Shown one piece after another: positions 1 through 30,590 of a stretch of DNA of 64,000 nucleotides. The position numbers and the translations under genes were made by a program. This stretch comes from Planctomycetota bacterium (GTDB taxonomy: Bacteria; Planctomycetota; Phycisphaerae; SM23-33): positions 1 to 64,000 of the forward strand of contig JAKPKY010000003.1 of NCBI GenBank assembly GCA_029553505.1, in the 5' to 3' direction. How positions within the stretch are numbered: the first letter of the stretch is position 1; each line of letters begins with the position of its first letter. The notes under the pieces were generated by a model. The model was given only the letters and a program-made list of their open reading frames with translations. It ran no database searches and had not been told where the DNA came from.

Positions 1-1174
1 GGCGGTCGCCCCCCGCTTTCACGCCGGCCATCAGGATGTTCTCGGTGGCCATGAACGGAAGCTCCGCCGCCACCGCTGCCTCGATCACCGCCGGATACAC
101 CACCAGCCCCTGCGCGACGTTCAGCACGATCAGCAGCGCCGCGTCGGCCGACAGGAACGCCTCCGTCATCGCCAGGCGCTTGTTGGCCGAATCGTCCAGC
201 GTGCGCTCGAACCACTGCTCCGCGGCCGTGTGCAGCGGGCTCTGCGCCACGTCCATCAGGAACCGCGCCAGCGCCGTCGCCCGCTCGCACCGCATCGGGT
301 TGCGCTTGTAGGCCATCGCGCTGGAGCCCACCTGCGTAGACTCGAAGGGCTCCTCCATCTCCTTGCGGTGCGCCAGCAGGCGGATGTCGTTGCAGAACTT
401 GTGCACGCTCGCGCCGATCCCCGCGAGCACCTGCGCCACGGCGGCGTCGATTTTCCGGCTGTAGGTCTGCCCGGTGATGGCGGCGATTTTCTCGAAGCCC
501 ATCTTCTTCGCCACCATCCGTTCCAGCTCGAGCACCTTGTCGTGGTCGCCGTCGAACAGCGCCAGGAAGCTCGCCTGCGTGCCGGTGGTTCCCTTGACGC
601 CGCGGAATTCCAGGCACTCCAGGCGGAACTCCAGGTCGCGCAGGTCCATGACGAACTCGCGGCACCACAGCGCCGCGCGCTTGCCCACCGTCGTCAGCTG
701 CGCCGGCTGGAAGTGCGTGAACGCCAGGCACGGCAGGTCGCGGTACTTGTCGGCGAACTTCCCCAGCGCGTCGATGATGTTGACCAGACGCCCGCGCAGG
801 ATTTCCAGACCCTCGCGCATCTGGATCATGTCGGTGTTGCAGTTGACGAACTGGCTGGTGGCGCCCAGGTGGATGATCGCGCGGGCGGCGGGCGCCGCAT
901 CGCCAAAGGCGTAAATGTGCGCCATCACGTCGTGACGGAGCTTCTTCTCATACTCGGCCGCCAGGTCGTAGCCGATGTCGTCGAGGTGCGCCGCCATCTG
1001 CCGGAGCTGCTCGCTGGAAATGTCCAGCCCGAGCGCCTTCTGCGCTTCGGCCAGCGCCAGCCAGAGCCTGCGCCAAGTGGAAAACTTCCGCTGGTCGCTG
1101 AACAGCTCCCGCATTTCCCGGCTGGCGTAGCGTCCTTCCAGCGGGCTGACGTAGGTGTTCCTTCGGTCGTCCAT
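1..1174 (-). CDS. purB: Adenylosuccinate lyase (C-terminus truncated by window edge)
   Basis: Reverse-strand translation [28 protein letters not shown]...[10 protein letters not shown]...[17 protein letters not shown]...[17 protein letters not shown]; signature [10 protein letters not shown] of the fumarase/aspartase superfamily. Not in the ORF track because it runs off the edge. Confidence 0.95.
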
Positions 1175-1399
1175 GGCGTTCGGAGTGTACCGCAACGGCG
1201 GGGGTTTGTCACCTGTCCAGGGGGGCAAATCGCACACAGTGCGCTGCCCGCCGGCCGCCGGATTTTTCCGACCCCCCTCGGGAAAATGAGAAATTTTTTC
1301 TTCCGGCCCGGCCGGGAGTTGCGGCGGCAAAACGCATTTTCGCGCGACTCCTGGGCAGCGCACCGCCGAGCGCGCCGGGAAAGGGTGAGGAGCGACATC

Positions 1400-3013
1400 A
1401 TGGGATTCGACCTGACAAACTTCCGCGACCCGCATCTCGACGCCGAGTATCTCGCCCACGTGGTCAGTCGGCAATCGCACCGGACCGAGGCCCGCTTCGA
1501 GCGGCTGTGGAACTATTTCCGCAACCCGCTGCTTCCGGCGGTCGGCCCGGCCGCCGAGGCGCTCAACGGGAACAGCCGCCCCTATCTCCAGGCGCAGGAA
1601 GTCGGACTGCCCGCCCGCATCACCGGCGTCCATCGCGGGGGAATTTCCGACCACCTCACCGACCTCCGCCGCAAGGAGGTCGTCATCGAGAACGACATCG
1701 GCTGGCGCGTCCAGACGATGGTCGAGTTCCTTTTCGGGCGTCGCCCGATGATCCGCTCGCTCGCGGCCGATCCGCGGCAGGCGCGGACCGTCGAAACGGT
1801 CCTCGCCCACCTGCTCGAAGCCAACGGCGGCCTGGCGTTCCTCCAGGAGCTCGCGCTGCTGGGGGCCGTGTTCGGCTTCGTCGACGTTGCCCTTCGCACC
1901 CCTGCCGGCGACATGTCCGCCGACTCCGCCGAACTTTCCCTTCCCCCCCCTCTCGACGAACCCGTCTCTCCCCCGCGCCGGCAGGGCGATGCCTCGGCCT
2001 CCGACGGCCGACAGGATGACGGCACGGACCCCGCGCCGGCCCGGTCTAACACCTCCCTTGCACGGGCCATCCGGTTCGCCCGCACGCTTCGGCTCGAGAC
2101 CATCGAGGCCGGGCGGGTCCTGCCCATCCTGGACGAGAACGATTACCGCCGCGTCCGCTACTGGGTGCAGCGGTTCGAGAAGCACCCGCCCCGCCTGGCC
2201 TCGCAGGATCGCCCGTGGTGGCGTCTGGGCCGCGGCCCGGCCGCTCCGTCCCCCGAAACCGTCGAGGTCGTCGAGATTCTCGGCCCGACGTGGTGGCAAC
2301 GGTATGAGAACGGCCGCCTGGCGGTCGAGGGTCCCAACGCGCTCGGGCGGCTGCCCGTCGTGCACATTCCCAACCTCGCCGTCCCCGGCGCGTACGAGGG
2401 GCTCAGCGACGTCGAACCGCTCATTCCCCTCCAGGACGAACTCAACACCCGCCTGAGCGACCGGGCGCATCGCGTCACGTACCAGTCGTTCCGCATGTAC
2501 CTGGGCAAGGGCATCGACGACTTCCTGGAGCGCCCGGTCGGCCCGGGGCAGATGTGGGCCACCACGAACATCGACGCCTCCATCCAGGAATTCGGCGCCG
2601 ACAGCGGCTCGCCCAGCGAGGACGCCCACATCGACCAGGTCCGCCAGGCGATGGACAAGGTCTCCGGCGTCACGCCGCTGGCGGCAGGGCTGATCCGCGG
2701 GAACGTGGGCAACCTCACCAGCGCTGCGGCGCTGAAGGTGGTGCTGGCCGGCCTGCTCGCCCGCACCGCCCGCAAGCGCCTGACCTACGGCGAGGGGCTC
2801 CAGCGGATCGTGGAAATGAGCCTGGCCGTGCTCGACCGGTTCGGCGCGCTGCGAACCGCGCCAGCCGACCGCCGCGTCGAGATCCACTGGCCCAGCCCGC
2901 TGCCCAGCGACGAGTCGGAGCAGCTCCGCAACGCCCAGATCAAGGCGCAGCTCGGCGTGCCCGCGGAACGGATTCTCGCCGAGCTCGGCTACGGACCTGA
3001 GAACAACGAATGA
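1400..3013 (+). CDS. Phage portal protein (SPP1 gp6-like)
   Basis: C-terminal part of ORF 230..3013, starting at ATG 1400 after [28 protein letters not shown]...LPVVHIPN...[40 protein letters not shown]...[20 protein letters not shown] is typical of portal proteins. Confidence 0.85.
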
Positions 3014-3045
3014 CCCCGCGCAAAAACCAAGCGAAAGGAACCCCC

Positions 3046-3624
3046 ATGACAGAGCAGCAGGATATCCCGGTCGAGGCCGAACCGCGGGACGACAGCCCCG
3101 CCGAAAGCCCCGCCCCCGGACGGCTCGTGCCGGTGGCCGAGTCCATCCGGTATCGCCGGCGGGCGCAGCAGGCCGAGGCCCGGATTCACGATCTGGAACA
3201 GCAGTTCCGCGAAGTCCAGGCGCAGCTCGAGGACCAGCGCAACCAGCTCGCGCTGGCCGAGGCCCAGCGCGACGAGGCCCGTCAGCAGATTCTCTTCGCC
3301 GAGAACCGCATCGCGGCCGAGAGGGCCCTCGTCGAGTCCGGCGTGACCGATCTTGAGGCGGCGTCGATTCTGCTGTCCAAGCGCGTGGACCTCAACGAGC
3401 CGCTCGGGGCCGACGCCCTCGGCCGGCACGTCGAGCAACTCCTGCTCGACAAGCCGTACCTTCGCGCGGCGGCGGGCGGGCTTCCCCCGCCGACGGCCGC
3501 CCCGAAGCCCCGGCAGGCTCCCGCGGCCGACCTGGCCGACGCCGCGCGACGCGCCGCCCACAGCGGAAACCGGCGCGACGTCGCCGACTACCTGCGTCTC
3601 CGCAGGCAACTGGCAACCCACTGA
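3046..3624 (+). CDS. Phage scaffold-like protein
   Basis: Coiled-coil, acidic N-terminus, located between portal and capsid; RBS GAAAGGAA before ATG 3046 (upstream ATG at 3010 also possible). Confidence 0.55.
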
Positions 3625-3653
3625 CCCCTTTTCCCACACAGGAGAAACCATCC

Positions 3654-4814
3654 ATGGCATTCACAGGCAAGGCAACCTACTCGGCCGGCGCGACGCTGCC
3701 GGAACTCGCCGAGGACGTGTCGGACATCGTCAGCATCGTCTCGCCGTACGAGACGCCCCTGCTGGACCACCTGGGCGACGCGCCCCGCGCCGCCGGCAGC
3801 ACCTACCACGAGTGGCTCGAGGACGAGCTGCTGCCCAACACCGACGCCGTCAACGATGACACGTGGACCGACCCCGCCGCCGACACGACCTTCGGCGTGG
3901 CGCACGCGGCGCGATTCCGCGTCGGCGACCAGCTGCGTCCCCACGGCAGCGGCGAGTTGATGCTCGTGACGGACGTCGACACCGGCGCCGGCACCCTCAC
4001 CGTCACTCGCGGCTACGGCGGCTCCACGCCCGAAGACCTTTCCGACGCCCAGGTGCTGCACATCCTGGGCAACGCCGCCCTCGAGGGCGACGACGCCCCG
4101 GCCGCCCGCTTCACCACCCGCGTCCGCAAGGGAAACTGGACGCAGATCTTCACCTCCGCCGTCCGCGTCAGCGGGTCCGACCTGGCCGTCCGCAAGGTCG
4201 CCGTCAGCGACGAACTGGACTACCAGAAGCAGGAGCGCCTCCGCGAACTGCTCCGCGACCTGGAGAACACCGTCGTCAACGGCATCGCCCCCGTCAGCAA
4301 CCCGCAGGGCGGCGAGTCCGTCCGCCGGACGATGCGCGGAATCCTGCCCAGCCTGACGACAAACGTCTTTTCGCCCGGCGCCGACGGATTCCCCGCCGAC
4401 ACCGACCTCACCGAGGCGCAGCTCAACCTCGCACTGCGGAGCATCTGGGAGCAGGCGTCCAGCCGCATCGACACCCTCGTCGTCAACGGAAAGCAGAAGC
4501 GGCGGATCAACTCGTTCCTCACCTCCGGTCGGGCGTACGGACCGGCCGACACGTCGTACCGCGACCTGGTGAGCGTCTACGAGAGCGACTTCGGCGTCTG
4601 CCGCGTCATCCTCTGCCGGGCCGTGCCCGCCGACACGGTGCTGCTGCTGGACTCCGGACGGATCGACGTGCTGCCGCTGGCCGGGCGCAGCTTCCACTAC
4701 AAGCCGCTGGCCAGCGCCGGCGACTACGAGGCCGGCGAGGTCATCGGCGAATACACGCTGGAACTCCGCAACGAGAACGCCCACGGGCTCATCACCGGCC
4801 TGAGCATCTCCTAG
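3654..4814 (+). CDS. Major capsid protein, SU10-like (DUF5309 type)
   Basis: LAEDVSDIVSIVSPYETPLLDHLGDA..STYHEWLEDELLP ... NGKQKRRINSFLTSGRA..YESDFGVCRVILCRAVPADTVLLLD..GEVIGEYTLELRNENAHGLITGL. Confidence 0.85.
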   Translation: MAFTGKATYSAGATLPELAEDVSDIVSIVSPYETPLLDHLGDAPRAAGSTYHEWLEDELLPNTDAVNDDTWTDPAADTTFGVAHAARFRVGDQLRPHGSGELMLVTDVDTGAGTLTVTRGYGGSTPEDLSDAQVLHILGNAALEGDDAPAARFTTRVRKGNWTQIFTSAVRVSGSDLAVRKVAVSDELDYQKQERLRELLRDLENTVVNGIAPVSNPQGGESVRRTMRGILPSLTTNVFSPGADGFPADTDLTEAQLNLALRSIWEQASSRIDTLVVNGKQKRRINSFLTSGRAYGPADTSYRDLVSVYESDFGVCRVILCRAVPADTVLLLDSGRIDVLPLAGRSFHYKPLASAGDYEAGEVIGEYTLELRNENAHGLITGLSIS

Positions 4815-4946
4815 CGGCATCGAACCCCGGCGCGAGGCGCCGGGCCTGTCCCGCCCGCGCCACGCCCGCGACAGCGGACCGGCGACCGGCAGACTGGGCG
4901 GGACAAACCCCGCGCCTCGCACCCGACCACCAACGAGGAAACGACC

Positions 4947-5600
4947 ATGAGCGAATTCTGCCAGGACAGGGACCTGCTGGGCATCGAGCCAGGGCTGTTT
5001 CTCGGCGGGGGCTTTGCCGCCCAGCAACTCGTCGGCGGCTCCGACGGACAGCTTTCCGGCACGACCTTCACCTCGCCCGGAAGCGACTTTTCCGCCGCCG
5101 GCGTGACGGCCGGCATGGTCCTGTGCGTCTACGACGCCTCGCCGGACGAGGGCGTGCCGCTGGAAATCCTCGCCGTGCCCTCCGCGACGACGCTGACGGT
5201 CTCCGTGCTCCGCGCCGAGGCCGACGGCCCGGCCGTTCCGCCCGCGTCCGCCGAGGGCCTGTCGTTCCGCGTCCGCACGTTCCGCCCGCAGATTCGCAAC
5301 GCCTCGGCCGCGCTGGCCGAAAAGCTCCGCCAGCTCGCCGAGACCGCCGGCGTGCAGTCCGCCGACTTCGCCGACTCGTCGCAGCTTTGCCTGACGGCTG
5401 CGTATCTCACGCTGGCGGGCGTGTTCGTGGCCCAGGCCCAAAACGCCGCCGCCCACGACGCCCACTGGATCAAGGCCGAGCATTACCGCCGCGAGTCCGT
5501 CCGCATGCAGCTCCAGCTCCGCCTGGCGGCCGACGAGGACGGCGACGGCTTCGCCGAGCGGACGCGAACCCTCGGGCACGTGACGCTGAGGAGGTCGTGA
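4947..5600 (+). CDS. Putative head-tail connector / hypothetical phage protein
   Basis: ORF with RBS directly downstream of capsid gene; position only. Confidence 0.5.
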   Translation: MSEFCQDRDLLGIEPGLFLGGGFAAQQLVGGSDGQLSGTTFTSPGSDFSAAGVTAGMVLCVYDASPDEGVPLEILAVPSATTLTVSVLRAEADGPAVPPASAEGLSFRVRTFRPQIRNASAALAEKLRQLAETAGVQSADFADSSQLCLTAAYLTLAGVFVAQAQNAAAHDAHWIKAEHYRRESVRMQLQLRLAADEDGDGFAERTRTLGHVTLRRS

Positions 5601-5601
5601 G

Positions 5602-6030
5602 ATGCCCTCACCCGTGGCGGACATCCTGAACGACATCGTCGAGACGCTCCGGGGCACGGGGCGGTTCGCGCTGGTGACGCTGGGCGAGTGCGCCGCGGCG
5701 ACGGCAACGCCGCGTGCCTGCGTGACACTCGCCGGGCTCGATGAACTTCGCCCCGACGACGCGCCCGGCGCCCGCTGGTTCCGCCTGCGGGCCCGCGTGA
5801 CGGTGCACGCCCGCGCGCATGAGCCGCCGGGCGGAACGATCCGCGCGGCGGAACTGTGCGACGCGGCGAGCGCCCTGCTGGCCGACCCCTTCCGCGCCGG
5901 GCGCTGCCAACACCTGCCTACCGGCGCCGCCACCGAAATCGGCTTCGCCGAACCCGCAGCGCTGCGACGACCCGAGGGGGAAATGTGCCTTTCCGTCCGC
6001 TGCCACTTCCAGACGCAGGACCAGCCATGA
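5602..6030 (+). CDS. Putative tail terminator-like protein
   Basis: Small ORF MPSPVADILNDIVETLRGTG..; size and position match minor tail/terminator proteins; ATGA overlap with next gene. Confidence 0.45.
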   Translation: MPSPVADILNDIVETLRGTGRFALVTLGECAAATATPRACVTLAGLDELRPDDAPGARWFRLRARVTVHARAHEPPGGTIRAAELCDAASALLADPFRAGRCQHLPTGAATEIGFAEPAALRRPEGEMCLSVRCHFQTQDQP

Positions 6031-6434
6031 ACCGCTACACGCGCATCCAGTCCGTGACGTTCGACGGCGTGGACCTCCCCCTGCCGCTCCAGGTGCGCGT
6101 GTCGCGCCGGTGCGAGCCGCAGGCGGCAGCCGGCGACGGCGACGCCTTCGTCACGAGCGTTCAGTGCTCCCGGCCGGTCCTGGCGGCGGAGGTGCGCCTG
6201 CGCGGCACGGCCGCGGCGGAGGCGCTGTCGCCGGGGCAGATCGGGACGCTGACGTTCGTCGTCGGCCCTGCCGCCGCGGGCCAGGCGCCGCGCCGCGTCA
6301 CCCTCGCCGGCGCGGTCCTGACGGGCGCGGATGTCGCCTACGAGCAGGCGGGCTTCGCCGAGGCGACGCTGCGGTTTGTCGCCGAGGCCGCCGACGGCCT
6401 GACCGACCCCCACGCCGCGGAGGACGCCCAATGA
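6027..6434 (+). CDS. Hypothetical phage tail protein (possibly tube-like)
   Basis: MNRYTRIQSVTFDGVDLPLPLQV...; in-frame start inside ORF 5856..6434, ATGA overlap with upstream stop. Confidence 0.45.
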   Translation: MNRYTRIQSVTFDGVDLPLPLQVRVSRRCEPQAAAGDGDAFVTSVQCSRPVLAAEVRLRGTAAAEALSPGQIGTLTFVVGPAAAGQAPRRVTLAGAVLTGADVAYEQAGFAEATLRFVAEAADGLTDPHAAEDAQ

Positions 6435-6796
6435 GCACGCTCGACGGAAACAACCTCTTCGGCAGCGGACCGCACGAGATCCACCCCGAGTCCTGGCAGC
6501 GTGCCGTGATGCGCCGCGCCTTCGCCGCTCTCGATGGCGAGCTGGCGATGGACCTGGGCCTGCGCTCGCGACGCATCGTCCAGACCGGGCGGCTCCAGGC
6601 GGCCGGAAGCGACGTGCTCAACCTGCTGCTGGCGCAGATCGAGTGGCTCCTCGACGGCCAACTGCACACGCTCGTCGATTCCTACGGGCGCGTCTACGAT
6701 CGCGTGCTCGTTGAGGAATTCGCCCCGGCCTCGGCCATCCGGCACGGCCGGGGCTTCTGGTGCGATTACCGCATCGTCTACAGACAATTGCCATGA
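6431..6796 (+). CDS. Hypothetical phage structural protein
   Basis: MSTLDGNNLFGSGPHEIHPESWQRAVMRRAF...; ATGA overlap with previous and next genes. Confidence 0.5.
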   Translation: MSTLDGNNLFGSGPHEIHPESWQRAVMRRAFAALDGELAMDLGLRSRRIVQTGRLQAAGSDVLNLLLAQIEWLLDGQLHTLVDSYGRVYDRVLVEEFAPASAIRHGRGFWCDYRIVYRQLP

Positions 6797-7518
6797 GCGA
6801 CGAGTTCACCACCGACAACATCACGCAGCTTCGCGCGGTGCCGCGCGGCACGGGTTGGGAAATCCGCTTCGCCTCCGGCAACGCGGCCTGCTGCCACCAG
6901 CTTTACGTGAACGGCCGGCTGGCCGACTGGACCGACACGGCTGCGCAGCGGGCGTTCGCGCTCGACGTCATTCTCGGCGGCCCGGCCGAGATCCTCGTCG
7001 CGGCCGTCGCGCCGGCGCTGCGACGGACGGACTTATCGGCGCGGCTGTCCGACGCCCAGCGGAACCCCGCGTGGGTGTATCGCGCGTCGGTGGTCCGGTC
7101 CCATCGGCACGGCCGGGGCGACTGCGCCGCGCTGCTGGGGGACCACGCGACCGGACAGATCGACGACTGTCCGCTCGACCGGCAGGAGCTTCGCCCGGCC
7201 TGGCTGGACGAGTGGGGGCTCGGCGCCGGGCCGTTCGGCTCGGGCGGGTTCGGTTACGACGCCGCAGCCGCGCCGGGCTTGCGCGGGGCATTCGGCGCCG
7301 GACCGTTCGGCATCGGCGCGGAACTGCTGGAACTCAGTGCCGCGCTGGCCGAGGAAGGCGCGCACCAGCTTCTCGTGCGGACGATCGCCCCCGACGGCAG
7401 GGGCGCCGACGGCGAGCCGGTTGCCTTTCAGGCCGCCCCGCCGCCCGCGCCGCCCGCTGCCGTCACCATTACCGATTACGACGCCGAAACGCAGACCGTC
7501 ACCATCCAGATTTCGTGA
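6793..7518 (+). CDS. Hypothetical phage protein
   Basis: MSDEFTTDNITQLRAVPRGTGWEIRFASGNAACCHQLYVNGRLADW...; translationally coupled. Confidence 0.5.
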   Translation: MSDEFTTDNITQLRAVPRGTGWEIRFASGNAACCHQLYVNGRLADWTDTAAQRAFALDVILGGPAEILVAAVAPALRRTDLSARLSDAQRNPAWVYRASVVRSHRHGRGDCAALLGDHATGQIDDCPLDRQELRPAWLDEWGLGAGPFGSGGFGYDAAAAPGLRGAFGAGPFGIGAELLELSAALAEEGAHQLLVRTIAPDGRGADGEPVAFQAAPPPAPPAAVTITDYDAETQTVTIQIS

Positions 7519-7527
7519 GGACACCCC

Positions 7528-8256
7528 ATGACCGAACTCTATCCCAGCGACGCGGAACTCAACTCCCTCAGCGGCACCAGCGACCCCGGCCAAGAGGTGC
7601 TCTACATCCCCACCGGTGAATCGCCCTACTACACGAGCTTCTACAAGATGCTCTACCGGCTGCTGGACGCGGCGCGGCGGGCGGGCGACCTGCGGGTCTA
7701 CAAGGACGGCGACCTGACGTTCGGCGTCCGCGCGGGCCGGCTGGCCAACGGGGACAACACGATCGCCTACGCCGGGGCATCCGCGCAGGCGCTGACCAAC
7801 AACGCCACGAACTACATCTACCTGGCCGTCAGCGGCGCGACGGCCACGCTGACGGTCAACACCACGGGTTTTCCCAATCCGTCGGCGACGCCGCACATCC
7901 CGCTGGCGACGATCGTCACCAGCGCCGGCACGTACGCGCACACGGCGATCACCGACTATCGCGGCCGGGCCCTGTACCGCACGCTCAACGCCCTGACCGC
8001 CGCGCTGGCCAACGAGGCGGCGACGTTCTTCGACGCCACGGACATCTCCGGCGCGGAGGCCGAAACGCTTTCGGACGGTTCGAACGCCGACGCCCTGCAC
8101 ATGCACGGGCCGGACGGGCTGGAAGAAACCTACTGCCGCTGGCGCGGCAGCCAGGCCGCCACGCCGACAGAACCGTCCGAAGGCGACCTGTACTGGGATA
8201 CCGCGCTCTCGAAGGTGCGCCAATACGCCGACGGCGCCTGGCGAGACCTGAGCTGA
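7528..8256 (+). CDS. Tail fibre-like protein
   Basis: LTNNATNYIYLAVSGATATLTVNTTGFPNPSATPHIPLATIVTSAGTYAHTAITDYRGR, a pattern typical of phage fibre/structural proteins. Confidence 0.6.
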   Translation: MTELYPSDAELNSLSGTSDPGQEVLYIPTGESPYYTSFYKMLYRLLDAARRAGDLRVYKDGDLTFGVRAGRLANGDNTIAYAGASAQALTNNATNYIYLAVSGATATLTVNTTGFPNPSATPHIPLATIVTSAGTYAHTAITDYRGRALYRTLNALTAALANEAATFFDATDISGAEAETLSDGSNADALHMHGPDGLEETYCRWRGSQAATPTEPSEGDLYWDTALSKVRQYADGAWRDLS

Positions 8257-8314
8257 TCGTCAACGGCCTTTGCTCTTTTCTGTAGCCTGTGGCCTTATTG
8301 AGGTCTGACGCCTG

Positions 8315-10453
8315 ATGTCTTTAGCCTGCTACATCGACGCGGAAGTGCCTTCCCTGGGCGAATGGAGCAGCGTCGTCCAGACGGGCGGTTCCCTGTTCAC
8401 GCAGACGCCCGCCGCCGCCTGGCCCGCGCGGGGCAAGGCGGGCTTCCGCGCCCAGCGCGTGACGACCGGCCTGTGCTACGCCCGCCGCGATTCCACGCTC
8501 GCCCTCGCGCCGGGCGGGGCGATCCACGTCGGCTTCTGGCAGCGATGGGACAGCCTGCCGACCGGGAGCGATTACACGCTCCACGAACTGCTCTCGACGG
8601 TGCCCGCCGGCGAAGACGCGGCGATCCGGTTCTCGACCGCCGGGGCGATCCGGTGGATGGTTCGCAACGACGCCGGCGCGAGCCTGTACACCGACTGGTC
8701 CGCCGCCCTGCCCGCCGGGACGTGGAATCACGTCGTGGTCGCCCTGGGCCGCGCGACGACCAACGTCAGTTCCGACGGCTGGGCGAGCCTGTGGGTAGAC
8801 GGGCGGCTCGTCGGCACGATCGCGGGCATCGACAACTACGACCGGTTCGACTGCAATCCGGGGCTGATCGTCGGGCGGCGGTGGACGGCCTCGGTGAACT
8901 TCACGTTGGACCTCGACGAGATCAAGGTCGGCACGACGCTGGCCGATGTCGAGCCGTTCAGCCCCGAACCGCTGACGGACTACGACGAGCCGCGCCGGAC
9001 GGTGCTGATCGTCCCGGACACGGCCGACGGGCGGACGTTCGCGGCGGACTGCTTTGCGGCCGGGATTCCCCGCGCGAACGTCTGCTACCTGTCCACGGTG
9101 GGGACGGAAACGCTGGCCGACTACGCGACGTTCCAGACGCAGATCGAGACGCCTTTGGCCGCGTTGCTCGCATCGCGCCCGGTCGTCGCCTCGCGCGTGA
9201 CGACGTTTTTAATCGGCCCCGGCGTCCCGGGGTTTTTCAACAGCGGCGGCGTGACCTATTCGGCCACTTCCCGCCTGATGCGCTACGGCACGGCTTTTAA
9301 TCCCGACTCGGCCAACCCGCTGTACGCGCCTTCCGTTGTTTCTCGACCTTCGATCTCCGACCTTCGAACTTCTTCTGTTTATCTTTGTTCACGCATCGAC
9401 GCCGACACCATCGCCAACGCCCAGTCGGTCCTCGCGGCGGGCTTGACGCTGTCGGCGCAAAAGCTGGCCGAAAACGACGTGCTTTATACCGACGATCCGA
9501 TTTACAGCCGCGACGACCATTACGCCGAGCCGTTGCTGCCGCGATCGAACGCGTTGGCGAACATCGAAAACGCCGCGCTGGTCGCAGCCGACGGTTCCGC
9601 CGTGCAGACGCTGCACTCGACCGGTTCGCGCGCGGTCTTCGTGTCGCGAAACGGCGACTCCTGCCCCACATTGCGATCGGCGTCGGGCTGGCCTGCCCAG
9701 GCCGTCCTGAACTGCGGATTCGCGGCCGCGCTGGGCTTTGCCGACGCCGCATGCGACTTCCACGTGGACGCTTTCCTCCGGATGCTGCTGGTTGGCGGGA
9801 GCGTCGCGGAGGCTTTCGCGGTGGCTGTGACGAAACTCGACCACACGTCCGTCGCCGTTGGCTGGCCGGGCCTGACCGTGAGCTTCCCCAAGCGCGGGCG
9901 GAAAATTTATGCCGGCCTGGGCGGGCTGGAAGCAATCGACTTCGACCAGCCCCTCGCCTATGCCCGGCCTGACCAGGACACGCTGTCGCTTCCGCTGCCG
10001 GCGCTGGCTGGCCAGAAGCACGTCCTGCTCTCCCGGAACGTCTCTGCTTCGGGCGTGGAGGAGCGCAACACGCACACGCTGGCCTGGCTGGAACTGGACG
10101 CCGCCGGCGAGGCAACGCCCCTCGCCCCGCCGCCGCCGTTCGACCTGTCGGCCGAGGTCGAAATGCCCGATACGGTCCTGCTGGGCTTTTCCTGGCGGGC
10201 GGAAGACGGCTGGGCCGAGGCCGAACACTTTGAAGTTTTCGCCGACACCGGGGGCGGATTCGACCTGGAAAACCCAATCGCGACCGTCGAGTGCTCCGCC
10301 GGCGGGCCAGGCGACTTTGAGACGCGCCTGGACGGCCTGACGCTGCCGGCCTGGCTGGCAGTTCGCGCCGTCGGCGCGGGTCGCGCCGGCGAGCTGAGCG
10401 CGGCGGTGCTCGTGCCTGCATATCCCGCTCCGCAAGCGCCCGAACTCCTGTAG
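8315..10453 (+). CDS. Large structural protein: LamG/ConA-like N-terminus plus TIGR03790-like domain
   Basis: N-term GAIHVGFWQRWDSLP...GTWNHVVVALGRAT..WASLWVDGRLVGTI (LamG-like); middle RRTVLIVPDTADGRTFAADCFAAGIPRANVCYLSTVGTETLADYATFQTQIETPL... VYLCSRIDADT... AFLRMLLVGGSVAEAFAVAVTKLDHTSVAVGWPGLT resembles TIGR03790. Confidence 0.6.
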   Translation: MSLACYIDAEVPSLGEWSSVVQTGGSLFTQTPAAAWPARGKAGFRAQRVTTGLCYARRDSTLALAPGGAIHVGFWQRWDSLPTGSDYTLHELLSTVPAGEDAAIRFSTAGAIRWMVRNDAGASLYTDWSAALPAGTWNHVVVALGRATTNVSSDGWASLWVDGRLVGTIAGIDNYDRFDCNPGLIVGRRWTASVNFTLDLDEIKVGTTLADVEPFSPEPLTDYDEPRRTVLIVPDTADGRTFAADCFAAGIPRANVCYLSTVGTETLADYATFQTQIETPLAALLASRPVVASRVTTFLIGPGVPGFFNSGGVTYSATSRLMRYGTAFNPDSANPLYAPSVVSRPSISDLRTSSVYLCSRIDADTIANAQSVLAAGLTLSAQKLAENDVLYTDDPIYSRDDHYAEPLLPRSNALANIENAALVAADGSAVQTLHSTGSRAVFVSRNGDSCPTLRSASGWPAQAVLNCGFAAALGFADAACDFHVDAFLRMLLVGGSVAEAFAVAVTKLDHTSVAVGWPGLTVSFPKRGRKIYAGLGGLEAIDFDQPLAYARPDQDTLSLPLPALAGQKHVLLSRNVSASGVEERNTHTLAWLELDAAGEATPLAPPPPFDLSAEVEMPDTVLLGFSWRAEDGWAEAEHFEVFADTGGGFDLENPIATVECSAGGPGDFETRLDGLTLPAWLAVRAVGAGRAGELSAAVLVPAYPAPQAPELL

Positions 10454-10463
10454 GAATGATCCG

Positions 10464-12155
10464 ATGCTCACGTTGACCCTGTTTTCCAACTCGACACGCG
10501 AGTCGATCGTCTCCTGCCGCTCGCCGGCGGTGTATGTCGGCGGCGCGAGGCGGCGCGACCTGAAGGTCGCCTCGTGGGAAGTCCTGCCCGCGCCGCGGTT
10601 CGGCGCGGCCCGGCTGGTGCTGGTTCCCACGCGCTCGCTTGCGTCGCTGCCTCGCCCCGGCCAGCGCGTGCTGGTTCGCGCAGATGGAAACAGTGGCGAG
10701 TTCCGCGGCGTCGTGGCGCGGCAGGAGATGAGCGTTTCGGATACGGAGCAGGAACAATCTGTCGTGGTCGCGAGCGAGGTGGCGGAACTGCTCAGCCAGC
10801 CGCTCCTGGGCCTCTGGCGTTCGGGCGACGACGGCCCGGCGGCTTGCCCGCTGTCACGCTTGCGGTTCAATGCCGACGCCAACGGTCTGGCCAGCGCCGA
10901 GCGCGTCGAGGTCGCCGGCCGGACGACCCGCGTGTTCAACAGCGCCGCCAACGCGACGGCGTGGACTGTCTCCGATGCGCTGACGTACCTGTTGGCGACG
11001 GCTGCGCCGAAGGAACTCGACGTGCCCGACCCGGACGAACTCGACGCCGTTTGCGGGGCCCTCGATCTGCCCGCGATGGACCTGACCGGCGTCACGCTCG
11101 CGGCGGCGCTGGCGCGCGTGGCGGGCGTGGCGGGCGTGGAGATCCGCGCGGCGCGCGAGGGGCTGGGCTTGACGTTCTTCCGCCCGGGCCGACAGGGACG
11201 GCTGCGGCGCATCGGTCTTCAGCCGGCCGGGGAACTGCTCGACCCGTCGGCGAGCAATCTCTGGCGCGGCAGGCTGGGCTTGCAGCGCCGTCCGGCGGCG
11301 CGCGGGGTCATCGCCCTGGGGGCGGCAAGGCGATACGAAGTGACGCTGCCGCTCTCGCCCGGCTGGGACACAGCCGCCCAGACGACCCGCTGGCGCGATT
11401 TGGTCCGTAGCGAGTCGGACGACTGGCCCGCTCGCGCCCCCGTCTTCCGCAAGTGGGTGCTCAACGAGCACGGGCGATATTCGGCCGCGCCATGGAACCT
11501 GCCGCGGAACGACCTGTCGGAACTCGGCGTGGAGGGGTTCGCCCTTCCGGTTGCGCGGCGGCTGCTGCCGTGCCTGTCCGCCGACGCCACCGGGCAAAGC
11601 CTCGGCGTTCTCGTCGAGTACCGCGACGTGTCGCAGGGCGACTGGCGGCGCTGGACGAACCCGTTGTGGGTTTCGCCCGATGAATGCGCGATCTGGCTGG
11701 GGGGCGACTCGCTGCCCGCCGACTACTTCCGCGCCGCGGCGGCCGACGAACTCGAGCTGCGCGTCACCGCCTGCCTGGAGTCCGACGCGCGCCTGACGGC
11801 CGAGGTTCCCGGCTCGCCCGGCCTGCCGCCGGAGGTGATCGACCTGTCGGACCGTTTCGGCTGGGCGCGCGTGCACGAAAGCAGCGCGTTCTTCGGAAGC
11901 GCCGTCGCCGACGAGTGCGACGACGCGGAGTTGCTGGACGTCCACGCGCGCCGCCTGGCCGAGCAACTCCCGCAGGCCGTCGAGACCGAACTGACGCTCG
12001 GATGGATCGACGAGTCGTGCCACGTCGGCGATCTCGTCGAGCGCGTCGAGGGGCGCGGGCCGGAGTTTCGCTCCCGCGCCGACGCGCTGCCCTGCGTGCG
12101 GGCCGTCCGGCACGACTTCGAATCGCAGACCACCACCCTGACCGTGAGCGGATGA
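10464..12155 (+). CDS. Hypothetical phage tail/baseplate-associated protein
   Basis: Long intact ORF in the structural cassette with RBS; function by position only. Confidence 0.5.
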   Translation: MLTLTLFSNSTRESIVSCRSPAVYVGGARRRDLKVASWEVLPAPRFGAARLVLVPTRSLASLPRPGQRVLVRADGNSGEFRGVVARQEMSVSDTEQEQSVVVASEVAELLSQPLLGLWRSGDDGPAACPLSRLRFNADANGLASAERVEVAGRTTRVFNSAANATAWTVSDALTYLLATAAPKELDVPDPDELDAVCGALDLPAMDLTGVTLAAALARVAGVAGVEIRAAREGLGLTFFRPGRQGRLRRIGLQPAGELLDPSASNLWRGRLGLQRRPAARGVIALGAARRYEVTLPLSPGWDTAAQTTRWRDLVRSESDDWPARAPVFRKWVLNEHGRYSAAPWNLPRNDLSELGVEGFALPVARRLLPCLSADATGQSLGVLVEYRDVSQGDWRRWTNPLWVSPDECAIWLGGDSLPADYFRAAAADELELRVTACLESDARLTAEVPGSPGLPPEVIDLSDRFGWARVHESSAFFGSAVADECDDAELLDVHARRLAEQLPQAVETELTLGWIDESCHVGDLVERVEGRGPEFRSRADALPCVRAVRHDFESQTTTLTVSG

Positions 12156-12715
12156 CCATGACAGCCCATCGCCCCTATCGTGACGCGATTCGCCGGCTCG
12201 CCCAGGCCGGCCAGGCCGCCGGAATCCGGCTCGTGCGGATCGTCGAGCGCGAGCAGACAAACCGCTACGTCGCGCGGCCCGTCGAGTTCGACGAGCAGGG
12301 CGCGACGCAACTCGTTGGTGACCGGACGCTCGTGGTGACCAACCTCGCCGAGCCCGCCGACGCCGACGGGCAGGTGCCGCCCGACACCGACGCCGCCGCC
12401 CTCGACGTCGAAGGCCGGTGGGTGGTCTTCCTCCGCTGCCCGGCGGCTGCCGTGTTTGCCGCGAGAGTCGTCGCGCCCGTCAGCGGCGCGGCCTACCACG
12501 TGCTCGAACAGGAGCCTACCGGCGAGGGAACCTTCGCCGACAAGTCCGGCGCCGCCGAGATCACCGCCTGCAACCTCGCGGAACTTTCGCTCGGGCCCGG
12601 TGGCGCAGTCGACGAGGGCGAGATCGTCCTGGTGACCGCGCAGGCCGACACCGGCCAGCCGTCGACGATCCGCTACTTCTTCGACCACCCCGCCTACGCC
12701 AAGTATCTGGATTGA
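12152..12715 (+). CDS. Hypothetical phage protein
   Basis: ATGA overlap with upstream gene; MTMTAHRPYRDAIRRLAQAGQAAGIRLVRIVEREQTNRYVARPVEFDEQ... Confidence 0.5.
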   Translation: MTMTAHRPYRDAIRRLAQAGQAAGIRLVRIVEREQTNRYVARPVEFDEQGATQLVGDRTLVVTNLAEPADADGQVPPDTDAAALDVEGRWVVFLRCPAAAVFAARVVAPVSGAAYHVLEQEPTGEGTFADKSGAAEITACNLAELSLGPGGAVDEGEIVLVTAQADTGQPSTIRYFFDHPAYAKYLD

Positions 12716-12745
12716 AGAGTGGAGAGTGCAGAGTGGCGAGTGAGG
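12716..12745 (+). repeat. Low-complexity 'GAGTGGAGAGTGCAGAGTGG' repeat
   Basis: AGAGTGGAGAGTGCAGAGTGGCGAGTGAGG; reverse complement of the 21568-21605 type. Confidence 0.75.
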
Positions 12746-12876
12746 AATCCCGGCGCACTAACAGAGCCCCGACCGTGAGGGAGGGGTCACCGACAGCCGC
12801 AAGTGGAAAGGCCGAAGGCCAGAGGCCTAAGCGGAAAACGGCGAACGGAAAGAGCCGCCGGAGGAGAGAGTGAACG

Positions 12877-13917
12877 ATGCCTTACCTCGCAACATGGACC
12901 AACGGCGACGCGCAGGGGCGGGTGGCCCCGGCTGTACACCGCATCCGCCTGTCCGACGCCCAGGAACTCGCCGAGGCGATCAACCGCCGCCGCCTGCTGA
13001 CGTACCAAGCCGCGCAGGACTTCTCGTCGCACGTGGCGACGGGCAAGCGGCTGCGCGAGCCGACCTTCGACAGCGCCGCCGCCCCGCCGCTGGACAATTT
13101 CCGCGCCGCGCTGGCCGAGAAGATCCTCTCCGCGCCGCTCGGAACGCTCGGCGGCGACCCCGCCACGCCCACGGCGATGGACTGGCTCTGGCCGCTCGCC
13201 GACGGTGACGAGAACAAACTCATCATCGCCAGCCAGGCGGGCGCGGGCGAGGTGTCGCTGTTCGACAAGCTCAACGCCACGGCCGGCTGGACCGACGCCG
13301 ACCTGCTGGCGGCGGCATCGCCCGTCCGCGCTGCGCACTGCAACGAGCTGCGGCAGGCGGTCGAGTGGCTCCGTCGCGGGCGATGGGTGCTGCCGGTCTA
13401 CCTGGCGACGGGGCTGTTCTCCCCCCTGCCCGACACGCCGTGGATCGGCGAGCTGATCGCCAACAACGGCACGCAGGAGCTTCGCACGCTGGGGATGGCG
13501 ATTCTCCGCACGACCGACGACCCGCCGCGCGGCCTGGCCGGCGCGACGGCGCGGGAGTCTTGCTCGCTGGCGGTCACGGCCGACGCCGACTGCCAGGTGG
13601 AGGTCTACCGCTGCAAGCGGACGGTGGACTTCGTGACCGACCGCCCGACGTGGAACGAGTACGACCCGAGCGCCTCGGCCGCGTGGGCCGGCCCCGGCGG
13701 CGCGGGCGCCGACGACGCCGCGTGGATCGGCTCGGTCTCGCTGACGGCCGGCGTGCCCGGCTGCCTGACCGGCGCGGCGCTGGCCGAAGCAGTGCAGGCC
13801 ATGATCGACGGCGCGGAGCAGAACTTCCTCCTCCGCCGCGCCGACACCGGATACGAGACCATCGCCGTGGCGGCAGAACTGACCGTCGAATTCGACCTCG
13901 ACAGCCCGCCGAACTGA
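12877..13917 (+). CDS. Hypothetical phage-associated protein
   Basis: MPYLATWTNGDAQGRVAPAVHRIRLSDAQELAEAINRRR...; GGAGAGAG upstream. Confidence 0.5.
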   Translation: MPYLATWTNGDAQGRVAPAVHRIRLSDAQELAEAINRRRLLTYQAAQDFSSHVATGKRLREPTFDSAAAPPLDNFRAALAEKILSAPLGTLGGDPATPTAMDWLWPLADGDENKLIIASQAGAGEVSLFDKLNATAGWTDADLLAAASPVRAAHCNELRQAVEWLRRGRWVLPVYLATGLFSPLPDTPWIGELIANNGTQELRTLGMAILRTTDDPPRGLAGATARESCSLAVTADADCQVEVYRCKRTVDFVTDRPTWNEYDPSASAAWAGPGGAGADDAAWIGSVSLTAGVPGCLTGAALAEAVQAMIDGAEQNFLLRRADTGYETIAVAAELTVEFDLDSPPN

Positions 13918-13951
13918 AGAAGGCAATAGCAAGGAAGGACAGGGAGATTCG

Positions 13952-14230
13952 ATGAACGTGTTGAGCGTGATGTTCGACCTGGCGACGTTCGGCGCGGCCG
14001 GGCTGATGGGCGCGATGTGGCTGTGGGAGCGAAAGCTCAGCCGGCATCGCGAGGAGCAGCTCAGCGAAGCGCACGGGCGGATTCGCCGCGACGAGGAGCG
14101 GTTGGCGAGCCTGACGCGTGTGGTGGAGCACAACACGGCCGCTATCACGCGGTTCGCCGAGATCCAGCGGGAAACCTGCGACGTCCTCAAGCGACTCGTC
14201 GAGGAGATGCACCATGTCCGGACGCGGTAG
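13952..14230 (+). CDS. Small membrane-anchored coiled-coil protein (lysis/holin-accessory-like)
   Basis: N-terminal TM segment then charged helix; 92 aa; late position in cassette. Confidence 0.5.
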   Translation: MNVLSVMFDLATFGAAGLMGAMWLWERKLSRHREEQLSEAHGRIRRDEERLASLTRVVEHNTAAITRFAEIQRETCDVLKRLVEEMHHVRTR

Positions 14231-14354
14231 GCTCCGTCGGAAGGCTCGGCGTCCGATGCGTGAAGGGTGGCACTGCTTGCTTGCAAGCAGTGTTCTCGCG
14301 GCTGCACGGCTTGACGAGCAAGCCGTGGCACACGCCATGCGAATTGACAGGCAG
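14231..14354 (+). repeat. ~125-bp double-hairpin palindromic element, copy A1
   Basis: GGGTGGCACTGCTTGCTTGCAAGCAGTGTTCTCGCGGCTGCACGGCTTGACGAGCAAGCCGTGGCA core; matches A2 and A3; begins directly after stop TAG 14228-14230. Confidence 0.9.
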
Positions 14355-14377
14355 AGCGAAACGGAAAGGAAATTGCC

Positions 14378-14650
14378 ATGCGAACGATCCTGATTCTCGG
14401 CGTCCTGTGCGCCGTCTGCGGCGGGCTGCTGCCCGGCTGCGGAAACGTGACCCTGCGCGGCGAGGCCCTGACGGCCGCCGAAACCAGCGCGATGGACGCT
14501 TACCAGGCAGTCCAGCGCGCAGGCGCGACGACAACCACCCAGCCGACGTGGGAACAGTCCTACCTGGTGGAAAACTTCAGGCAATGGCGCTACTTCGTCC
14601 GCGCGGCTCGCAAAGACCTTACGTGGGGACCGAAGCTCGCCGGCGAATAG
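14378..14650 (+). CDS. Small lipoprotein (possible o-spanin-like)
   Basis: Signal peptide and lipobox MRTILILGVLCAVCGGLLPGCGN; RBS GGAAAGGAA. Confidence 0.5.
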   Translation: MRTILILGVLCAVCGGLLPGCGNVTLRGEALTAAETSAMDAYQAVQRAGATTTTQPTWEQSYLVENFRQWRYFVRAARKDLTWGPKLAGE

Positions 14651-14757
14651 CCAGCGAGCTAGAGCAGGCGAGCAGTTGAGCAGTGGAACAGTAGAAAAAC
14701 GCTCCGCGAGCCTGCGGTCTCCTGCTCACCTGTTCTCCTGCTCAGGAATGTTGCCGA
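14651..14757 (+). repeat. Low-complexity 'GAGCAGG/CCTGCTC' block
   Basis: GAGCAGGCGAGCAGTTGAGCAGTGGAACAGTAG ... CTCCTGCTCACCTGTTCTCCTGCTCAGG. Confidence 0.75.
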
Positions 14758-14857
14758 CCCGTTGCGCCGGGAGCGCCGAAAGGGGCGAAAGAAGGTCGCA
14801 CGCGAAGCTTCACCTCTAACCTTTCCCCTCTACCCTCGCGCCGGAAAGGATTCGACG

Positions 14858-15205
14858 ATGACTGACCTGACCGAATGTATCGAAAAACTGTTGGAGCGCG
14901 TTCCCGACTCGCAGCGCCAGGTCGCGTCGGAGTTGCTGGCGCAGTACGGCCCGCGGTTGTTCGAGCTGGCCCAGGAGGACGCGTGGCAGTGGCTTCGCCG
15001 TCTGCTGGCAGGCGACCTGGACGTGGTGACCGAGCTGGACTCCAAGCTGTCGGATGACCAGTTCGTCGCCAAGGTCAAGACCAACACGGCCCGCTGGGAA
15101 AATGTGGCCGGCTACAACCAGGTCCGCGACGAACTGCGGAATGAAATTCTGCTGCGGCTGGCGCCGGTCGTGCTGAACCTGCTGGCCGGTTTGGTGGGGC
15201 TTTAA
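14858..15205 (+). CDS. Hypothetical protein
   Basis: MTDLTECIEKLLERVPDSQRQVASELLAQYG...; start at 14858 after CCGGAAAGGA. Confidence 0.5.
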   Translation: MTDLTECIEKLLERVPDSQRQVASELLAQYGPRLFELAQEDAWQWLRRLLAGDLDVVTELDSKLSDDQFVAKVKTNTARWENVAGYNQVRDELRNEILLRLAPVVLNLLAGLVGL

Positions 15206-15290
15206 CCCGGCTTCGCCTTCGGCTACGCCGTGGCAAGCCGGGTTATCACGGCGTAGTCCCGACGGGACGAAGCCGGATGGCAACGAAAGG
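15206..15290 (+). repeat. Palindromic intergenic repeat after stop codon
   Basis: TAACCCGGCTTCGCCTTCGGCTACGCCGTGGCAAGCCGGGTTATCACGGCGTAG, inverted repeats. Confidence 0.65.
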
Positions 15291-15299
15291 AGTCGGGAG

Positions 15300-15497
15300 A
15301 TGAATCGCGTTCGAAACTGGATTCGAGGGAAGAAGACCTACCTCACGGCCGCACTTGGCCTGCTGGGCGCTGTGGTCGCCTGGGCCGACGGGCAGATCGA
15401 CACGCTGGCGCTGCTGGCGGCCGTCTGGGCCGCGGCGCAGGCCTGTTTCATCCGCGCGGGAATCGGCAATGAGGTCCAGAAGGCGCAGGGACAATGA
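15300..15497 (+). CDS. Holin-like small membrane protein
   Basis: MNRVRNWIRGKKTYLTAALGLLGAVVAWADGQIDTLALLAAVWAAAQACFIRAGI; size and TM content resemble small phage membrane proteins. Confidence 0.6.
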   Translation: MNRVRNWIRGKKTYLTAALGLLGAVVAWADGQIDTLALLAAVWAAAQACFIRAGIGNEVQKAQGQ

Positions 15498-16721: not shown

Positions 16722-17090
16722 CTACTGGGTGAGGTTGAACTCGGCGATGTCGGGCCCGGCGGCCTGCTTGGCCTCGGCGAGGCCCCTGCGGGCGGCCTCG
16801 TTGCTCGGTTGGACGTCCAGGCACGACTGGTAGTAGTACATCGCCTTGGCGTACTCGCCCTGCGAATAGCAGATTCTCCCGAGGTAGAACAGCGAGTCGG
16901 CGTCGGCGGGTTCGGTCCAGAGCACCTGGCGGAACAGGTCGCGGGCCTCTTCGAGTTTTCCGACCTGGTATTCGCTGATGGCCTTGGTGCGCAGCTGTTC
17001 GGGCGTGGGCCCGCCGCACCCGCTGACGGTCAGCAGCGTCGCGCCGGCCAGGAGTATCGTCGCCAGTCCACACAAGGTCACGCGCTTCAT
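16722..17090 (-). CDS. TPR-repeat lipoprotein
   Basis: MKRVTLCGLATILLAGATLLTVSGCGG lipobox; LEEARDLFRQVLWTEPADADSLFYLGRICYSQGEYAKAMYYYQSCLDVQPSN TPRs. Confidence 0.75.
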   Translation of the reverse strand: MKRVTLCGLATILLAGATLLTVSGCGGPTPEQLRTKAISEYQVGKLEEARDLFRQVLWTEPADADSLFYLGRICYSQGEYAKAMYYYQSCLDVQPSNEAARRGLAEAKQAAGPDIAEFNLTQ

Positions 17091-17161
17091 GTCGCTTCTC
17101 CTCATGCAGCCCCCAAGGGCTTGCCATTCCATGCGCCCTGGATTGTGCTAATATCATAACG

Positions 17162-17527
17162 ATGTCGAGAGCGTTTGTCATCCAAATCCATACCGGGCAC
17201 GGTCCGACGCATTTCGACCTGATGGTGGACCGGGGCGAGGCGCTGGAGACCTGGCAGGTACGGGAAGACCCTGCCGGGCTGGCGGCTGGGCAGGCGGCGA
17301 CCGCCCGGAAGCTGCCCGACCACCGGCGGGCGTACCTGACGTACGAAGGCCCGGTCAGCCGGGGGCGCGGCAGCGTGCGCATCGCCGACGGCGGACAGTG
17401 CGAGATACTGGAACGGACCGACGCCCTGCTGCGGGCGCGGTTCGCGGGACGGCGGATGGCGGGCGTCTTCGAGCTGGTGCGGCCGGCCGGCGGCGACGAC
17501 TGGCAATTGCGGCGAATTGGCGAGTAG
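17162..17527 (+). CDS. Stand-alone LigD N-terminal (3'-phosphoesterase)-like domain protein
   Basis: FVIQIHTGHGPTHFDLMVDRGEALETWQVREDP...YLTYEGPVSRGRGSVRIADGG...LRARFAGRRMAGVFELVR matches the fold pattern of LigD_N (PF13298). Confidence 0.6.
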   Translation: MSRAFVIQIHTGHGPTHFDLMVDRGEALETWQVREDPAGLAAGQAATARKLPDHRRAYLTYEGPVSRGRGSVRIADGGQCEILERTDALLRARFAGRRMAGVFELVRPAGGDDWQLRRIGE

Positions 17528-17657
17528 GTTCTGTCGGAAAACTCCCTGCCCGATGCACCCCCAAGGGTGGCACTGCTTGCTTGCAAGCAGTGTTCCTGCG
17601 GCTGCACGGCTTGACAAGCAAGCCGTGGCACCTCCGATTGGGAGTTTTCAGGCAGGG
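17528..17657 (+). repeat. Double-hairpin palindromic element, copy A2
   Basis: CTGTCGGAAAACTCCCTGCC ... GGGAGTTTTCAGGCAGGG ends around the same core; begins directly after stop TAG 17525-17527. Confidence 0.92.
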
Positions 17658-17673
17658 CTTGACCGCGGCGCGG

Positions 17674-18453
17674 TCAGGGTTCCTGGCTGGCCCGGGCGAC
17701 CGGCTCGACATGCAGCGTCAGGCCTTCGGGGCGGACTTCCACGCAGGCGATCCGCACTTTCTTTCGACCGATGGGCAGCTTCAACTCGTTGGGAATCGGC
17801 CCGGAGTCGATCCCCGCCAGGACGGTCGAGACCAGCCGCCCCACGTCCTCGGGTCGCAGACCGCCCAGGCCCGACGCGCCCTGCTCCTGCCCGGCGGCGT
17901 GGGCCGCAGCGGCCGTCAGCTTCTCCCGCAACGCCTCGATCTGCGTGTTGACCAGCTCGCGCGGCACCTCGAGCCGTCCGACGCGTACGGCCGCCAGGCG
18001 CACCCGCAGCGCGCCGTCGGCGTCCTGACGGATGGCCAGGTCGGCCGAGAGCACCTTGTTGTACTCGGTCTGCCGGGCCAGCAGGCAGATGACCCCGTCG
18101 CCCAGCGCGACGGCAGGGTCTGCCAGCGCCGCGCGGGCCAGCAGGCGGCGGGCCTCGCCGCTGTTGGGCCCGTGGCGGACGTCGGAGATCTCGTCGAGCG
18201 AGGCGAGGTACTCGTTGATCTGCCGCTCGGTGACGGTCCAGGTGAACGCCTGGGGCAACTGGGCGAGGTTGCTGAACTCCAGCAGGCGGTTGGCGAACTC
18301 TCCGGCGGCCTGTCGGCGCTGGGGCAGCGAGAGCTGCGCGGGGCGGTAATTTTCGGGCACGCGTCCGGCCTGGACGTACAACCAGCCGGCCGCGACGACA
18401 ATCGCCGCCGCCAGCGACAGGAGCGTCCACTTGACGATGCCGCCGATTCGCAT
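17674..18453 (-). CDS. Hypothetical single-TM protein
   Basis: MRIGGIVKWTLLSLAAAIVVAAGWLYVQAGRVPENYRPAQLSL... Confidence 0.6.
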   Translation of the reverse strand: MRIGGIVKWTLLSLAAAIVVAAGWLYVQAGRVPENYRPAQLSLPQRRQAAGEFANRLLEFSNLAQLPQAFTWTVTERQINEYLASLDEISDVRHGPNSGEARRLLARAALADPAVALGDGVICLLARQTEYNKVLSADLAIRQDADGALRVRLAAVRVGRLEVPRELVNTQIEALREKLTAAAAHAAGQEQGASGLGGLRPEDVGRLVSTVLAGIDSGPIPNELKLPIGRKKVRIACVEVRPEGLTLHVEPVARASQEP

Positions 18454-23056: not shown

Positions 23057-23185
23057 ATCCTGTTGAAAACCAGGAATCCGGGGTGCCACGGCTTGCTTGT
23101 CAAGCCGTGTAGCCGCAAGAACACTGCTTGCAAGCAAGCAGTGCCACCCTTCAGAGGAATCTGACGGGGAGTATTCAGACAGGGC
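23057..23185 (-). repeat. Double-hairpin palindromic element, copy A3 (inverted orientation)
   Basis: Reverse complement aligns with A2 across its length; begins directly after stop TAA 23054-23056. Confidence 0.92.
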
Positions 23186-30465: not shown

Positions 30466-30590
30466 CTCTGTAGAAAACATCAAAAAGAGAGGGTGGCACG
30501 GCTTGCTTGCAAGCCGTGTTCCGGGCAAATTCGGGCAACACGCCCGTACGGGCGTGCCACCCATCCCGGAAACGAATGTTTTCTACAGAG
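30466..30590. repeat. Double-hairpin palindromic element, variant A4 with perfect 15-bp terminal inverted repeats
   Basis: CTCTGTAGAAAACAT ... ATGTTTTCTACAGAG; inner hairpins CACGGCTTGCTTGCAAGCCGTG and CACGCCCGTACGGGCGTG; outer GGGTGGCAC/GTGCCACCC. Confidence 0.92.

Follow-up and report, generated by a model that had tools for sequence, protein, structure and literature searches.

A capsid, portal and tail-tip gene cluster beside purB as the likely structural half of a gene transfer agent-like system of Phycisphaerae

The structural cluster beside purB

The window analysed here is a stretch of 64,000 nucleotides (C188:1-64000) from a metagenome-assembled genome (MAG) of the class Phycisphaerae, phylum Planctomycetota, which comprises 264 contigs and is 73% complete. 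Near its left end lies a cluster of phage-like structural genes, on which we will focus: 17 co-directional genes at 1400-15497, running from a portal gene to a gene for a small transmembrane (TM) protein, where the original prediction, made by a model from the letters alone, had counted fourteen. That prediction was correct in describing the open reading frames as intact, with ATGA overlaps at 3010, 6027, 6431, 6793 and 12152, and in placing the block against a divergent purB. The latter gene (2-1174, minus strand) matches PF00206 (1e-20) and is truncated by the start of the contig, which falls inside it; it is the conserved left neighbour in about ten members of family f1.

The first genes, on the plus strand like the rest of the cluster, specify a phage head. 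The portal protein (1400-3013) matches phrog_104 (1.6e-22) and PF05133 (3.5e-12) and is present in 30 of 60 relatives, and the major capsid protein (3654-4814) is SU10-like (PF17236 SU10_MCP, 2e-84), with 9ny2 and 7z45 as solved relatives, so that the profile matches confirm both the portal and the SU10-type capsid named from the letters. The scaffold-like protein encoded between them (3010-3624), likewise predicted, has weak matches (PF06810, 0.005; phrog_4708, 0.002) and the position expected of it, which is conserved. The next gene, g4 (4947-5600), is conserved class-wide in its position after the capsid gene and occurs in almost all of the reduced, tail-less clusters described below. Its product gave no match in the PDB and is probably a head-tail adaptor, its C-terminal pattern being one that we take to resemble those of adaptor proteins.

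With regard to the tail, g5 (5602-6030) is a possible tail terminator gene with a very weak match (phrog_4204, 0.18), seen only in family f1, and g6 (6027-6434), conserved in f1 and distantly matched in f5, may encode a small, tail-like structural protein. The g7 product (6431-6796) is a Dit-like distal tail protein, whose AlphaFold model (pLDDT 92) matches a monocin tip and the SPP1 Dit (2x8k) in Foldseek, with E-values of about 7e-5. A structural protein with an Fn3-like start is the probable product of g8 (6793-7518), which is conserved in the family alignment and matches no known family, and the conserved g9 (7528-8256) appears to encode a virion or fibre-like protein (weak phrog_20787 match, 0.007). 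The LamG-domain protein g10 (8315-10453; PF13385, 9.9e-9) is likely to bind a receptor or form a fibre. Finally, g11 (10464-12155) encodes a tail hub of the gp27 / Mu gp44 / VgrG-like type; comparison of its profile with PDB sequences gave no match, and the hub was recognised instead by structure, its AlphaFold model (pLDDT 87.5) matching hubs of contractile systems, namely those of MuSo2 and Mu and of the VgrG type, with E-values of 5e-11 to 1e-6. The structure models were built from about 25 sequences, and the comparisons throughout rest on draft MAGs and a home-made gene caller.

Both g12 (12152-12715) and g16 (14858-15205, a small protein) are conserved among relatives, and g13 (12877-13917) in family f1 and in G046 of family f11. 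The g14 protein (13952-14230), with one TM segment and a coiled coil, is holin/BhlA-like (weak phrog_2429 match, 0.0099) and is kept in several reduced clusters. It is followed by g15 (14378-14650), a small lipoprotein with the lipobox LPGC that would be spanin-like by position, a lipoprotein after g14 being found in many relatives, while the small TM protein g17 (15300-15497), possibly a second holin-like protein, has counterparts of 70-80 residues at the end of the cluster in relatives. By analogy, g14, g15 and g17 plausibly form a release module. Profile searches returned no terminase, protease, tape measure, integrase or lysin among the cluster genes, and the cassette as modelled is a head plus tail tip with its tape measure unrecognised.

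The unlinked terminase and its control locus

The original prediction had recognised no terminase, which holds for the cluster and fails for the genome, and its suggestion that none might exist at all was wrong. A search of the same genome with PF03354 gave no match, and the broader phrog_2 retrieved an intact large terminase (TerL) of 506 residues on a separate contig (C198:5773-7293, locus L063). Walker A, Walker B and the acidic residues of the nuclease are invariant among 16 diverse members, and the nuclease domain matches the terminases of G20c and SPP1. Most genomes with the capsid gene likewise have, at another site, a terminase-like gene that was retrieved by profile. Among 396 class genomes, 179 carry both genes, seven the capsid only, 31 the terminase only and 179 neither; the corresponding Fisher value (6e-69) overstates the significance, because genomes are not independent. 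In the 40 genomes that carry both genes on one contig, the distance between them ranges from 2.5 to 982 kb, with a median of 22 kb. The terminase gene adjoins the portal gene in G046 and G055, two genomes of one family, and this adjacency may represent the ancestral order.

Several of the terminase-only genomes have a more divergent terminase. Seven capsid-less genomes (G006, G026, G030, G035, G037, G042 and G051) encode such divergent terminases of the same family (E-values of about 1e-105 to 1e-124), which possibly belong to a related system with another capsid.

Upstream of the terminase gene lie genes for an ABC-ATPase-GNAT protein, a sigma-region-4-like protein and, divergently oriented, an XRE-S24 repressor of LexA/CI-like type. 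Clustering placed the ABC-ATPase-GNAT family in most of 24 loci. In L063, the gene (4628-5776) codes for an ABC-ATPase fused to GNAT (phrog_11143) and overlaps the start of the terminase gene by four bases; relatives stand near the terminase in most families. A small gene directly precedes the terminase gene in several loci and could encode the small subunit. Of note, all 15 repressors compared possess the Ala-Gly cleavage site and the Lys of LexA-type self-cleavage, and all but one the Ser; the repressor of the genome studied here has the site and both residues of the dyad.

The structural operon itself is preceded by a putative regulatory leader (1175-1399, plus strand), in which a pair of GCGC-type dyads, spaced by about 110 bp, surrounds an A/T tract and is followed by a GGGTGAGGAG ribosome site. 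In a footprint of 13 genomes of the family, several relatives have perfect TTGCGCGCGCAA-type dyads near -158, near -48 or at both places; in the genome studied here, the dyads are degenerate. No palindrome was obviously common to the portal leader and the intergenic region between the repressor and sigma-like genes, so any direct action of the repressor on the structural operon is conjectural.

Distribution across the class

The capsid gene was found in 186 of the 396 Phycisphaerae genomes (153 of the 313 of high quality), and in almost all of them it forms a single frame of full length, free of stops. Among 60 relatives, 32 have it as a single copy, the portal gene following the same pattern, and capsid identity amounts to 98% with the congener, 71-82% with full-length family members and 57-67% with other families. 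The original prediction had named absence from close relatives as the sign of a recent integration; the cassette turned out to be syntenic in many genera and present class-wide. The order portal-scaffold-capsid-g4-g7-g8-g9-LamG-hub is kept across dozens of lineages, in loci whose GC content spans 0.41 to 0.70. In GTDB, taken as one genome per species, 331 stretches encode a capsid relative, of which the best 80 all carry the names of Phycisphaerae, of Sedimentisphaerales or of other Planctomycetota.

Capsid and terminase genes, but no hub or Dit-like protein detectable anywhere, are found in complete or nearly complete genomes from four families (f14, f10, f8 and f19), and family f5 has kept only a distant Dit-like gene. 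These reduced clusters retain portal, scaffold, capsid, adaptor and terminase, and an unrelated replacement tail may serve in such lineages. Furthermore, a related head cluster occurs in a second Planctomycetota group outside the class, in one case with the terminase in the same block.

The loci of this other class (L240-L245; families f46, f87 and f89) run portal-scaffold-capsid-g4 and continue with genes for a conserved pair of proteins (about 431 and 375 residues) not found in Phycisphaerae loci; it is L243 that has the terminase in its block. Two genes of 416 and 393 residues after the reduced cluster of G054 were considered as counterparts and gave no match; by eye they look host-like (ATPase, MltA-like).

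Inheritance, selection and mobility

The distances for capsid, for portal and for terminase correlate with one another and with those for RpoB, the rpoB of the congener being used since none was found in the incomplete MAG. In trees of 19 genomes, TerL has 11 of 16 splits in common with RpoB and the capsid 8 of 16, against a mean of 0.25 for random trees. The ratio of nonsynonymous to synonymous substitution rates (dN/dS) is 0.08-0.3 for most cluster genes and 0.115 for purB.

Where a family member has no cluster, genes that form the right flank of the cluster here sit directly next to purB. This flank (16722-18453) comprises genes for a TPR protein (16722-17132), a LigD_N protein (17162-17527) and an unnamed protein (17674-18453). 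Carriers and non-carriers are interspersed in the purB tree, in which the well-supported branches alone require three changes or more. Because position is shared and absence interspersed, the pattern is best read as repeated loss of the cluster.

With regard to mobility, the longest word common across the boundaries is 10 bp, equal to that in shuffled sequences, and no integrase was found at either locus or among the scanned neighbours, a search that covered the loci and not the whole genome. A terminase and integrase module bounded by att sites, which the original prediction had set against its own reading, did not emerge: the terminase is unlinked and conserved in the class, the loci hold no integrase, and boundary repeats are at chance level. 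Nor do the genes make up a temperate prophage, for which att sites, an integrase and genes for replication and lysis would be expected in one continuous stretch.

Relation to phages and known particle systems

Capsid (7z45, the SU10 head protein, and 9ny2), portal (PF05133), terminase nuclease (SPP1 and G20c) and Dit (SPP1 gp19.1) all resemble those of SU10-like and SPP1-like phages. The system differs from these in that no replication or integration module lies at the two Phycisphaerae loci and in that capsid identity does not exceed 31.6%, the best match among 50,697 isolate phage records; the best terminase matches there are about 30% identical over 39% of the length. Of the phage contigs, L163 (IMGVR_UViG_3300033145_000895) carries at 6734-8183 a capsid gene 79% identical to that of the window, together with a C-terminal scaffold fragment. 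This contig has its own methylases, a different terminase and no portal gene near the capsid gene, which was perhaps captured from the domesticated system.

Gene transfer agents (GTAs) have arisen several times, are dispersed and are not yet recognisable by homology outside known families (PMC11841831). Like the alphaproteobacterial RcGTA and CcGTA, the Phycisphaerae system combines a vertically inherited structural cluster with dispersed loci. RcGTA-like clusters occur in 57.5% of alphaproteobacterial genomes (PMC11841831), a share similar to the class-wide pattern seen here. In CcGTA, RogA represses gafYZ, and GafZ has a sigma-factor-like helix-turn-helix (PMC11150451); the Phycisphaerae terminase locus likewise pairs a repressor with a sigma-like regulator, a likeness that we propose as analogy and not as homology. 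In contrast to both agents, the capsid is of SU10 type and the portal and terminase of SPP1 type (these being the families matched), the terminase lies mostly outside the structural cluster, with regulators, the repressor looks LexA-like and self-cleaving, hub and Dit are absent in several lineages, and the host belongs to Planctomycetota. BaGTA, VSH-1, Dd1 and VTA are also independent domestications with dispersed gene sets (PMC11841831); they are reported from other phyla. Capsid-forming phage-inducible chromosomal islands (PICIs) encode portal, capsid, connectors and terminase (PMC10690885), a set like that of the reduced Phycisphaerae clusters. Unlike PICIs, which are mobile with helper phages, the Phycisphaerae system is split, single-copy and host-congruent; such islands unite an integrase and regulators of their own in one mobile element, and no integrase was found at either Phycisphaerae locus. 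The open-access PMC literature, to which our search was confined with subscription papers and preprints outside its scope, yielded no account of GTAs in Planctomycetes or Phycisphaerae.

Proposed function and alternatives

The block is, in our view, likely to provide the structural half of a GTA-like particle system that Phycisphaerae have domesticated and inherited vertically. The case for both domestication and vertical inheritance is good: the congruence of the trees, purifying selection and the strong joint occurrence of capsid and unlinked terminase uphold the domesticated or GTA-like reading with which the original prediction began. GTA function appears, from gene content, to be the best explanation. 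The genome holds a head-tail structural cluster of tailed-phage origin (the tail being missing in some other lineages) and its own packaging enzyme with intact motifs; the genes are dispersed over several chromosomal loci, here on two contigs, and have been inherited with the host over long times under purifying selection, and no functions for self-mobility (integrase, replication, att) were found at either locus. The further marks of a GTA, namely the loading of largely random host DNA in fragments that cannot hold the complete gene set and its delivery to recipients, would be predicted for the particles. With less assurance, and on balance in favour, we propose a new, independently domesticated GTA family inherited throughout Phycisphaerae, to which a head-terminase cluster of a second class would be related and which a self-cleaving LexA-type repressor at the terminase locus would switch; its tail-less lineages would keep capsid, portal and terminase under selection as DNA-packaging shells without a recognisable delivery device.

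During normal growth, the LexA/CI-like repressor would silence its divergent neighbours, namely the sigma-region-4-like activator, the ABC-GNAT gene and the large terminase gene. DNA damage would trigger its self-cleavage, presumably as SOS induction, whereupon activator and terminase would be made and the structural operon beside purB switched on. Heads would then be built from portal, scaffold and capsid and loaded by the SPP1/G20c-type terminase, probably in headful mode and with chromosomal DNA, the adaptor and a short Dit/hub/LamG tail being added where the lineage retains one. The holin- and lipoprotein-like genes may finally release the particles for transfer.

Several observations weigh against this proposal. 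The system is known here from its genes, and neither particles nor packaged DNA nor transfer have been seen; a tape measure, lysin, protease and confident small terminase were not identified, these parts being missing or unrecognised. About half of the class lacks the system, which is hence dispensable, and terminase-only genomes exist. The terminase of the congener G001 is split over two frames, and the repressor of one family member lacks the catalytic Ser. Fast evolution was seen for g9 and g11 in one pair (dN/dS of about 0.4). Inside family f1, the correlation of capsid and RpoB distances is weak (r=0.26), so some exchange within this family is possible. As to the split congener terminase (L064, G001:C8), it contains an insertion, and recent loss or an assembly error is possible.

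The best placed of the alternatives, though improbable, is a capsid domesticated for a role other than transfer: it might form a compartment, serve as a decoy or otherwise act against phages, or couple packaging and lysis to damage, and several lineages would have lost the tail. This reading would suit the reduced clusters, whose complete genomes have no detectable Dit or hub anywhere; however, DNA packaging is apparently retained, because the catalytic residues of TerL and the portal are conserved, and the complete tail tip, LamG fibre included, persists in many lineages. Slightly less probable still is a long-resident but active phage or satellite which, like capsid-forming PICIs, would have its own heads and terminase and use the tail of a helper. 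The tail-less head and terminase sets of several complete genomes do resemble those islands (PMC10690885), and the capsid gene of L163 has a phage setting; yet capsid and terminase are encoded at two sites, with tens to hundreds of kb often lying between them, neither site has yielded an integrase, a replication gene or an att repeat, and a single copy with a fixed position in the family and host-like trees argues against this reading. An ordinary cryptic prophage, a defective remnant that happens to persist, would account for the lack of integrase and replication genes, for the terminase missing from the structural locus and for some broken copies (the G001 TerL, rare capsid stops), but is very unlikely, being already disfavoured by purifying selection (dN/dS mostly 0.1-0.3), by intact frames across about half of the class and by the class-wide co-conservation of the unlinked terminase in a mostly host-congruent phylogeny.

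Known GTAs come from few lineages, and their frequency outside Alphaproteobacteria is an open question (PMC11841831). The system described here shows GTA hallmarks in roughly half the genomes of a large class, most of it uncultured, where prophage-finding methods are likely to label the cassette a partial prophage. Its natural variants, with the terminase linked or unlinked and the tail present or absent, allow tests of why bacteria keep particles and of how control shifts to the host.

Intergenic repeats

The original prediction had also listed host-style repeats between the genes of the cluster, a claim that stood at one of four positions. The repeat at 14651 has no copy within the window, that at 15206 is an inverted repeat and that at 12716 has a weak 32-bp copy only; the one at 14231 is a dispersed host repeat. 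Members of this repeat family lie at 14231-14377, inside the structural cluster, and at 17563-17631, 23083-23180 and 30490-30521.

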